Below are positions 19,363-21,565 of a stretch of DNA of 21,565 nt, one piece after another. The DNA is from Chloroflexota bacterium. GTDB taxonomy: Bacteria; Chloroflexota; Dehalococcoidia; GIF9; AB-539-J10. Location: positions 1-21,565 of the forward strand of contig JADFUX010000012.1 of assembly GCA_015222255.1 (NCBI GenBank). The letters run 5' to 3'. How positions within the stretch are numbered: position 1 is the stretch's first letter; each line of letters begins with the position of its first letter. The translations under genes and the position numbers were made by a program. The notes under the pieces were generated by a model that was not told where the DNA came from, did no database searches, and saw only the letters and a list, made by a program, of their open reading frames with translations.

Positions 19363-19569
19363 TTACTCTTTTATCTTATATCGCTTCTTAAAGCGCTCCA
19401 CCCTTCCCATGGTATCGCGTATCCTCTGTTCGCCGGTGTAGAAGGGATGGCACTTGCTGCATACCTCAATCCTGATCTCCAGCTTAGTTGAGCCGACGGT
19501 AAACGTGTTGCCGCAGAGGCAGGTCACTTTGGCATTATCGTGATACTTAGGGTGAATTTTGGTTTTCAT
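19363..19569 (-). CDS. rpmE: 50S ribosomal protein L31 (zinc-binding form)
   Basis: Small protein of the large ribosomal subunit, placed at the central protuberance bridging to the small subunit. The 68 residues begin MKTKIHPKY and contain the zinc ligands of the C+ form, C17-x-C19 and C37-x2-C40 ([10 protein letters not shown]), then [12 protein letters not shown]. The C+ form often serves as a zinc store and may have a Zur-regulated zinc-free paralogue elsewhere. Its ATG overlaps the rpmA TGA by four bases (ATGA), implying translational coupling. Third gene of rplU-rpmA-rpmE. Confidence 0.97.
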
Positions 19570-19817
19570 TTATAAACGCTAACCTTTTTCTTATACTTGT
19601 TGGCTGGCTCATATCTAACGCGGCCATCTATCAAAGCAAAGAGAGTATGATCTCTGCCAATACCCGCGTTGTTGCCGGGCAGGATACGGGTGCCACGCTG
19701 CCGAACCAAAATCGTCCCAGAACGAACTTGCTCCCCACCATACCTCTTCACCCCCAACCGCTTGGATTGACTATCACGCCCACAACGCGAGCTGCCACCA
19801 GCTTTCTTATGTGCCAT
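19566..19817 (-). CDS. rpmA: 50S ribosomal protein L27
   Basis: Large-subunit protein whose N-terminus reaches the peptidyl-transferase centre. The 83 residues start directly with [23 protein letters not shown] after Met, so there is no Firmicute-type cleavable N-terminal extension. [21 protein letters not shown] is characteristic. The start is preceded by gagggc, which is also the last codons of rplU; the gap to rplU is two bases. It overlaps rpmE by four bases. Confidence 0.97.
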
Positions 19818-19819
19818 CT

Positions 19820-20140
19820 CTAGCCCTCAGACTTAATGATTTCATCTATTGATAGCTTCGTATATATTTGACGATGCCCTTTTTTTCTGCGGTAACGGAC
19901 TTTAGACTTGTATTTAAATACCGTGACTTTATCACCCTTGACTTCTCCTAAACATGTAGCTATGACCGTAGCACCCTTAATGGTTGGATTACCCGCAAGC
20001 GGATTCTCACAGTCGCCAATAAATAATACCCTCTCAAGCTCTACCTTATCGCCTTCAAGTATGCTTAGGCGCTCAACCTCTATCGTCTGCTTTGGACCTA
20101 CCTTATATTGTTTGCCACCTGTTTCGACAATCGCGTAAAT
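19820..20140 (-). CDS. rplU: 50S ribosomal protein L21 with non-canonical ATT start
   Basis: Large-subunit protein binding 23S rRNA. The leftward frame ending with TAG at 19820-19822 reads (I/M)[17 protein letters not shown], then [30 protein letters not shown] and [21 protein letters not shown], clearly L21 (106 residues). No ATG, GTG or TTG occurs anywhere in this frame, and a TAG stands five codons upstream of the aligned first residue. The codon at the Met position is ATT (20138-20140), seven bases after a strong ribosome-binding site gggagg (20148-20153). I therefore call an AUU start, as known for E. coli infC; a sequence error of ATG to ATT is the main alternative. First gene of rplU-rpmA-rpmE; rpmA starts two bases after its stop. 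Confidence 0.93.
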
Positions 20141-20147
20141 CGTATTA

Positions 20148-20153
20148 CCTCCC
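20148..20153 (-). promoter_or_regulatory. Ribosome-binding site deciding the rplU start
   Basis: Read leftward this is gggagg, a near-perfect anti-16S match, placed seven bases before the ATT codon at 20140. Spacing and strength point to that codon as the initiation site. Confidence 0.75.
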
Positions 20154-20163
20154 TAAAAAGTAG

Positions 20164-20193
20164 ATTTTATGAATATCAGCTGCCAAATGTCAA
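20164..20193 (-). promoter_or_regulatory. Sigma-70-type promoter for rplU-rpmA-rpmE
   Basis: Leftward: consensus -35 TTGACA (20188-20193), an 18-base spacer and TAAAAT (20164-20169), five of six -10 matches. Transcription would start near 20157, leaving a leader of only about 17 bases, just enough for the ribosome-binding site. There is no room for a classical L21 leader structure. Confidence 0.6.
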
Positions 20194-20274
20194 GCGCCCT
20201 CGGGCTCTGTTGTTGATGTTCTATGATTTTGTCACCCTGCAAGTGTTCTGTGAAAACGCCACCCTAGCAAGGAG

Positions 20275-20464
20275 ATGGCCACATTGAACAGGAAAGAACA
20301 GAAAAGGCTACTGGTGTTGAACCAGGTGGAGATAGGCAAGATGATCAATCAAAGAGGACTAAGGTATTAGGCCTTTCCCTGCGCCACGTGCGAAGGATTT
20401 CGGCAGCGTGTCGCAAGCAGGGCGCCCGGCATTGGCCCATCGTAATCCGCGAAGAAAGCCCACC
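20275..20464 (+). pseudogene. Remnant of an insertion-sequence transposase (N-terminal HTH part)
   Basis: From the ATG at 20275 the reading is MATLNRKEQKRLLVLNQVEIG, ending at a TAG (20368-20370). In a second frame from 20367 it continues LGLSLRHVRRISAACRKQGA, and in a third from 20429 ALAHRNPRRKPT. Joined, this is the N-terminal helix-turn-helix of a transposase resembling the ISNCY/IS1202-type group (RKEQ...VLN..E.G...LGLS.RHVRR...YRK.GA.ALAH.N.GRKP). Two frame changes and the absence of any DDE catalytic part show that it is a dead fragment. No terminal inverted repeats or target duplication could be identified. Confidence 0.7.
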
Positions 20465-20749
20465 TTTTATCTTCTGGCCATTTTGCCCTCGTTACTGATT
20501 TCCTCCATTTTCTAGTACTAGCAGAAAAGGCAGGTGCTACAGCTAGCCCGGTCAACCTATGCAGTAAGAATATCGCTCACGTAGCGATCAATGGCATTTC
20601 GTGACGCTTGGCTTTTGATAGCAGATACCCATGTAACGTATGTCCAGGTTCTAGGCTAATACAGAAAGGCAGCGTTCGACGTGGAATGCATCAAGCGATG
20701 GCTAGTTTCCCACCCGATCAAATACCGGCTCCAAGCTATACTGCTTGTT
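20465..20749. other. Unassigned stretch between the transposase remnant and the lipoprotein gene
   Basis: About 285 bases with no recognisable gene, structured RNA or repeat. Short open frames on both strands (for example 20608-20844 rightward, which runs antisense into the lipoprotein gene) lack family features. It may be further eroded transposon sequence or simple spacer. Confidence 0.4.
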
Positions 20750-21565
20750 CTACATCACCGGTATCTCAGGAGCTTGTAGTGCCTCTGGCGGTAGCTCAAT
20801 GGAAATTGGTTGGTTGTAATCGCGAATCGTCATATCAATGCTGAAATCCATGGTCATTCTGTCGAAGTCTTCCAGAGTGAGTTCTACATCCTCAGGAGTC
20901 ACCTCCATAAGCATGTCAGCCTGAGCCCTCATCAAGAGAGAGCTATCCTTAGCTATCCATTCTCTGATCGACATAGACGTCTTCTCAAATAGCTCCTCCA
21001 AATTCTCAATGTCCTCTAAGTCCATGCCTTGCATGCCCTGTTGCTGAGCTAAGAATTCAGCCAGTTTCTCCACGTCAGGCATTATGTCAAATACATAACA
21101 GTCAGTACCATCTACAAGTTCACTACCTACGAGCTTGACTTCTGTTGCCGTTTTCAACAGCTCTATTTGCTGGTCAACTTGCTTCTGCATTTCCCACATT
21201 TCAGGGGTGAGCTTCGTTTTCATCCACTGTTCGCCCATTAAGGGTACACTCATCTTCACATACACCCATTCACCAACTATGTATATCTCCATGCCCATCT
21301 CTTGTTCGCTTTGCCCCGGCACGTTCATAGTCATGTTCATGGCCATCTGCATCTCTCTATTCACGCTATCTATAGCGCCAGTGCCATCAGCACCCATAGA
21401 CATCCTTCCTGGTTCGGTCCCTCCAATTACATCCATTGTGATAGACATGTCTGTATCAAATTTGTATGTTTCCGCCTCTGCGAGGGCATCTACTGCCTCT
21501 GTTATTATTTGGTCTATCTGCTCCGAACTGAGCGTCTCCTCTTTTTCAGCACAGCCAACGAAGGC
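20750..21565 (-). CDS. Predicted lipoprotein, methionine-rich, 5' end outside the window
   Basis: The leftward frame is open to the right edge, so the protein is N-terminally incomplete: 271 residues are visible. The first residues read AFVGCAEKEE, the end of a lipoprotein signal peptide with the lipobox Cys at visible residue 5, so the true start lies about 15-20 codons beyond the edge. An internal ATG at 21448 is not the real start. The mature part is acidic and mostly beta-like, with YIVGEWVYVKMSVPLMGEQW, KLVGSELVDGTDCYVFDI and IRDYNQPISIELPPEAL, resembling LppX/DUF6612-type lipid- or ligand-binding lipoproteins with an incomplete barrel. It is strikingly Met-rich between about visible residues 40 and 130 (for example EMQMAMNMTMNV). 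The function is unknown; outer face of the cytoplasmic membrane is inferred. Confidence 0.75.
   Translation of the reverse strand, partial: AFVGCAEKEETLSSEQIDQIITEAVDALAEAETYKFDTDMSITMDVIGGTEPGRMSMGADGTGAIDSVNREMQMAMNMTMNVPGQSEQEMGMEIYIVGEWVYVKMSVPLMGEQWMKTKLTPEMWEMQKQVDQQIELLKTATEVKLVGSELVDGTDCYVFDIMPDVEKLAEFLAQQQGMQGMDLEDIENLEELFEKTSMSIREWIAKDSSLLMRAQADMLMEVTPEDVELTLEDFDRMTMDFSIDMTIRDYNQPISIELPPEALQAPEIPVM

Follow-up and report, generated by a model that had tools for sequence, protein, structure and literature searches.

Ribosomes normally reject AUU as a start codon. According to the partly accessible literature, infC and pcnB of E. coli start with AUU, and discrimination by IF3 is described for infC; by one such account, chromosomal AUU starts in E. 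coli number two (PMC9410913). In S. aureus, infC (AUA), cvfC1 (AUU) and ccpN (AUA) combine a strong Shine-Dalgarno sequence with reduced efficiency, as stated in the accessible sections of PMC13009471. For the E. coli rplU-rpmA operon, the available text of PMC10931766 shows no feedback.

The window (the whole 21,565-nt stretch of DNA analysed here) carries an rplU gene for which a first-pass annotation had proposed an AUU start, and it is near certain that AUU is indeed its start codon. AUU and AUA starts are already known; the rplU case is unusual in gene and in breadth. In the following, ATH denotes ATT, ATC or ATA at the aligned Met position of rplU. With E. coli infC the locus shares a near-cognate start with a third-base mismatch in a gene of the translation apparatus; infC encodes IF3 and its discrimination by IF3 is known, whereas rplU, the first gene of its own cluster, encodes a 50S protein and would respond to IF3 by analogy. 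The likeness to E. coli pcnB is the AUU start itself, a weak start that limits translation of a chromosomal gene, but pcnB is not ribosomal, and ATH starts of rplU span 41 of 67 families of the class (31 by unambiguous loci). S. aureus ccpN and cvfC1 resemble rplU in having a conserved near-cognate start and an extended Shine-Dalgarno sequence; from what is available of PMC13009471 the former is a regulator and the latter a small protein, whereas here the gene encodes a ribosomal protein and has a predicted leader of 20 nt. The E. coli rplU-rpmA operon has the same genes in the same order, the difference being that rpmE is attached here and that no feedback is reported there in the accessible part of PMC10931766.

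Read from 20155 to 19820 on the minus strand, the rplU frame is TAG GGA GGT AAT ACG ATT TAC GCG and so on to a closing TAG (Table 1). Its 112 codons include no ATG, GTG or TTG, as had been claimed, and CTG is absent as well. That the gene is full length was borne out: the product scores 115 bits against Pfam L21 (PF00829) and 103.7 bits against TIGR00061, above the cut-off of 43.7, and its residues 1-100 match profile positions 1-100 of 101, profile position 1 being the Tyr directly after ATT. The position of ATT relative to the Shine-Dalgarno sequence and the presence of an in-frame upstream stop, both put forward in the first-pass annotation, proved correct, with the addition that the stop overlaps the Shine-Dalgarno sequence. 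The stop and ATT are five codons apart with no canonical codon between them, which refutes an upstream canonical start for the window. That rplU leads an operon, as was suggested, agrees with the tight packing of the genes behind it. Similar packing was seen in the 30 ATH loci with rpmA, where the distance between rplU and rpmA is 2 nt (19 loci), 3 nt (2 loci), 10-11 nt (4 loci) or an 11-nt overlap (5 loci); rpmA and rpmE overlap by 4 nt in 18 of 24 measured ATH loci. Between the lipoprotein gene and rplU lie about 590 bp (20156-20749) without a recognised gene, and only the last 40 bases, containing the predicted promoter, are accounted for. No tRNA was found in the window.

Table 1. Features of the rplU region in the window
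Feature	Position	Strand	Remarks
Lipoprotein gene, SCO4651 family	20750-21565		
-35 element TTGACA of rplU promoter (predicted)	20188..20193	minus	promoter score 11 of 12, spacing 18 bp
-10 element TAAAAT (predicted)	20164..20169	minus	predicted transcription start near 20157, leader ~17 nt
In-frame TAG	20153..20155	minus	closes rplU frame upstream; overlaps Shine-Dalgarno sequence
Shine-Dalgarno GGGAGG	20148..20153	minus	7 nt between GGAGG and ATT
ATT start codon of rplU	20138..20140	minus	position of Met; from the sequence and the alignment of relatives
rplU codon 2, TAC	20135..20137	minus	TAT never seen here in ATH loci
rplU (bL21)	19820..20140	minus	106 aa including initiator Met, plus stop; PF00829, TIGR00061
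rpmA (bL27)	19566..19817	minus	ATG start 2 nt past rplU stop
rpmE (bL31)	19363..19569	minus	ATG start, 4-nt overlap with rpmA stop

The start codon was then compared across the class. rplU was matched in 86 of 100 relatives, and all 86, G061 among them, were read; to these were added G114 and 60 further class genomes, mostly one per family, chosen out of 245 sampled class genomes, 231 of which had a match. After G047, whose locus ends at a contig edge, had been left out, 146 class genomes were counted; the stretches for the class-sample genomes, G061 and G114 cover about 65 rplU codons each. We take the class to be Dehalococcoidia (Chloroflexota), as the rplU frame of G127, a member of the window's class, is identical to that of D. 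mccartyi P0121 over the 80 residues read, the doubtful N-terminus included. ATH is present in 42 of the 44 readable genomes of the window's own family, which supports the AUU start well beyond a single genome. A canonical codon at this position in relatives had been named beforehand as the observation that would speak against it, and ATG, GTG or TTG was found there in 0 of the 44 (36 ATT, 5 ATC, 1 ATA, GCT and ACT). In the whole set, ATH occupies the Met position in 92 of 146 genomes (ATT 76, ATC 13, ATA 3); the rest have a canonical codon (15) or another codon (39) there. The window's genome, which is metagenome-derived, is incomplete (62%) and split into 114 contigs; errors in sequencing or assembly, or a gene broken in this one genome, could in principle mimic such a start. 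The same type of codon in 92 genomes, among them seven single-contig genomes of f16, the Dehalococcoides family, refutes this explanation, whose probability we regard as negligible.

In all 54 class genomes without ATH, a canonical codon occupies the Met position or lies in frame upstream of it (in 52 of them within 12 codons). ATH is absent from 26 of the 67 families, including f2, a neighbour of the window's family, and the start-codon device must therefore be dispensable. In f2, which belongs to the same order, ATG stands 3-4 codons upstream and a clear Shine-Dalgarno sequence is often absent (e.g. L036, L031 and L067). L307 and L317, which belong to other families, seem to be leaderless, their -10 box being 13-16 nt ahead of ATG.

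Translation could also begin at another codon, either a canonical one upstream or the ACG that precedes ATT in the window, with ATT being read as plain Ile. Many database proteins carry upstream extensions, and some canonical codon lies between the upstream stop and ATH in 41 of the 90 ATH loci in which a stop was reached; in the other 49 there is none. Taking into account the predicted transcription starts, the 83 ATH loci with a promoter fall into 44 with no canonical codon, 20 with canonical codons solely upstream of the transcription start and 19 with at least one past it. When canonical codons lying solely upstream of the predicted transcription start are disregarded, 69 of the 92 ATH loci, representing 31 families, have no possible canonical rival, and for these loci an upstream canonical start was rejected. 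The remaining 23 loci (the 19 just mentioned and 4 without a predicted promoter) are ambiguous, and ten families are known from ambiguous loci alone. In seven of the ambiguous loci (L013, L063, L263, L274, L275, L278 and L282) an ATG is located within 30 nt of ATH. An upstream start may hold for single loci of this kind: in L278 an ATG immediately precedes ATT, and to judge from this arrangement the gene probably starts there. In the Dehalococcoides loci L059, L265 and L266, TTG codons at -15 and -21 lie close to the Shine-Dalgarno sequence, so that AUU is not the sole possible start. ACG was rejected as the start because the codon preceding ATT varies among the relatives (ACG, AAA, GAA, AAG and others).

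The annotated N-termini themselves were inspected in the best 120 of 5114 database homologs of bL21. Among the 118 that were recognisable, 114 have Ile before Tyr-Ala, and in 76 of these 114 the extension ends in GG-x(1-3)-Ile, i.e. in a translated Shine-Dalgarno sequence. D. mccartyi P0121, which is called hypothetical, has the annotated N-terminus MYNIALLLGGVNI-YAII. The ATG annotated in G127 lies directly ahead of a TATAAT box, and the same codon is CTG in the two sister genomes G095 and G172. These observations suggest that the N-terminal extensions of the database proteins, that of D. mccartyi included, are probably false, and the extensions, like the name of P0121, probably result from gene callers not allowing ATT. 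Overall, initiation elsewhere than at ATH is considered very improbable. Three database proteins (P0024, P0165 and P0205), seen as protein entries only, begin with Met-Tyr-Ala. In a literature search covering mainly openly readable papers, no paper was found that joins rplU or L21 with an AUU start; a preprint dealing with genes that favour non-AUG starts (arXiv 2008.10758) could mention rplU. The accessible parts of PMC10783764 and PMC9845219 contain nothing on rplU, and that of the D. mccartyi proteome paper PMC7918482 nothing on L21.

A promoter scoring at least 9 of 12 is predicted in 88% of the 92 ATH loci and in 2.8% of shuffled upstream sequences, a comparison in which the shuffles ignore relatedness; 9 of the 92 have no promoter at score 8. 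Where the score is at least 8 (83 loci), the predicted leader has a median length of 20 nt (quartiles 19 and 24). A Shine-Dalgarno match of at least 5 bases is present in 87 of 92 ATH loci, and in 74 of the 89 loci with a match the spacing to the start is 6-7 nt. Given the position of the near-consensus promoter, the rplU leader is predicted to be about 20 nt long and to consist mostly of the Shine-Dalgarno sequence. Structured autoregulatory leaders exist in other ribosomal protein operons, and bL21 might repress its own operon through such a leader, the start codon then being incidental. For this the predicted leader is short, no Rfam family matched in the window at gathering score, and the folding of leader plus start, calculated for two sequences, was no better than that of shuffles (z 0.38 and 0.82). 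With the E. coli operon also showing no feedback in what could be consulted of PMC10931766, repression through a structured leader appears extremely unlikely.

Several further sets of loci served as controls. In other Chloroflexota families ATH was found in 0 of 38 loci, with a canonical codon at the position in 31 and upstream in frame in 7. A sample of 80 named genomes, drawn from among the matches listed and consisting mostly of distant bacteria, gave 70 ATG, 6 GTG, 1 ATT and 3 upstream ATG. In a MAG labelled Actinomycetota (L144:1498-1500, plus strand), an ATT start of rplU follows GGAGG and a TTGACA/TAATAT-like promoter; the start may have arisen independently or the genome may be mislabelled, and no infC was found in this MAG. 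Within the class, canonical starts were present in rpmA (36 of 36) and rpmE (28 of 28) in the loci that reach these genes. The other ribosomal proteins were scored in one genome, G095 (L229). In its S10-spc-alpha stretch, 25 ribosomal proteins and IF1, read from their first canonical codon, match their NCBIfam models from profile positions 1-5; in L4, S5 and S11 10-16 residues precede the start of the model, in the other proteins mostly the first few residues. As the first canonical codon was chosen by construction, this control shows that no ribosomal protein in the stretch needs AUU, and does not speak to the exactness of each start.

An altered initiator tRNA was considered and rejected, as the initiator-type tRNA of G095 has the usual CAU anticodon. 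Three tRNAs with this anticodon were present in the 30 loci examined (of 46 matches) in G095, and one of them has the GGG/CCC anticodon stem, which we take to be the mark of the initiator. This likely initiator tRNA (L246:1501-1575, plus strand) has C at the first base and T opposite (C1 x U72). The E. coli initiator tRNA has a C1 x A72 mismatch.

infC was found in 88 of 100 relatives, the window's genome included, and 50 loci (L168-L197 and L204-L223; the 30 best matches and 20 chosen, mostly from the window's family) were analysed. Of these, 45 have ATA, 3 ATC and 1 ATT at the aligned start or no more than 9 nt away from it; the one locus without a near-cognate codon, L211, has a pair of ATG codons upstream. 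There is no canonical codon back to the stop in 35 of the 49 loci in which a stop was reached, and some upstream canonical codon in 14. In many loci the ATA is located just a few codons past an in-frame stop. Taken together, the infC and rplU data show that two translation genes have retained near-cognate starts in the class, AUA being preferred in infC and AUU in rplU. A conserved ATH start of rplU, no canonical start in the window or in the unambiguous relatives, and an infC with a near-cognate start in the same class are what would be expected of control of the infC/pcnB type.

The sequence around the start bears further marks of selection. Among the ATH starts, 76 of 92 end in T, compared with 159 of 423 internal Ile codons in the opening 60 codons of the gene (Fisher p 1.7e-15, without regard to relatedness). 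Codon 2 of the 92 ATH loci is TAC in 91, TAT in 0 and AGC in 1, whereas internal Tyr codons are TAC in 49 and TAT in 44 cases; the TAC/TAT counts at codon 2 are 40/10 in the class genomes without ATH and 48/7 in the named controls with a canonical start. With TAT ahead of GCN, an out-of-frame ATG would arise four bases past the A of AUU; such an ATG would be a strong rival of a weak start and appears to be avoided. This bias was noticed post hoc and is regarded as a lead.

Considering all these observations, we estimate a probability of roughly 70 per cent that the AUU of rplU is a brake, set by IF3, on the output of bL21 behind a strong promoter and Shine-Dalgarno sequence. The near-consensus promoter would give an rplU mRNA with a leader of about 20 nt, mostly strong Shine-Dalgarno sequence, and an ordinary initiator tRNA with a CAU anticodon would read AUU (AUC or AUA in relatives) to yield a product beginning fMet-Tyr-Ala-Ile. 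Promoter and Shine-Dalgarno sequence being strong, the third-base mismatch at the start would be the rate-limiting brake, and the conserved AUU probably throttles the amount of bL21 made. IF3 would reject the mismatched complexes and in this way set the strength of the brake, as it does on its own gene in E. coli, so that a rise in free IF3 would lower bL21. Control through IF3 discrimination is the best inference, made by analogy with infC; its support is indirect and comes from the near-cognate start of infC in this class and from the third base of the rplU start having stayed T, C or A.

AUU could also be the true start and merely fix a lower level of bL21, with no sensing of IF3 or of initiation conditions. 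A weak start alone would explain why ATH is conserved together with a strong promoter and Shine-Dalgarno sequence, and in S. aureus the AUU of cvfC1 cut output with no effect of the medium (PMC13009471, available part). However, a weaker promoter or Shine-Dalgarno sequence could equally have cut bL21, and both are near consensus while the codon is weak; the same kind of start in infC also argues against a purely fixed level. Such a fixed setting seems unlikely compared with the brake set by IF3.

If IF3 does set the brake, rpmA and rpmE, packed behind rplU, would follow by coupling. A more tentative proposal, to which we give slightly less than an even chance, is that the whole bL21-bL27-bL31 cluster of Dehalococcoidia is wired to IF3 by the start codon: the ratio of free IF3 to 30S, held by the AUA of infC, would set the output of these 50S proteins with neither an RNA structure nor a ribosomal protein repressor, an arrangement kept across most of the sampled families. 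As for its putative physiological purpose, the E. coli rplU-rpmA operon being without feedback, the start-codon device would fill a real gap.

The distribution of ATH starts suggests that rplU is overlooked, or given a wrong start, in much of the class by gene callers that accept only ATG, GTG and TTG, with consequences for marker-gene sets and proteomic databases. Discrimination by IF3 is known mainly from infC, and few chromosomal AUU starts are established. A class-wide near-cognate start in a ribosomal protein gene, together with that of infC itself, makes IF3-coordinated ribosome production testable in cultured Dehalococcoides.
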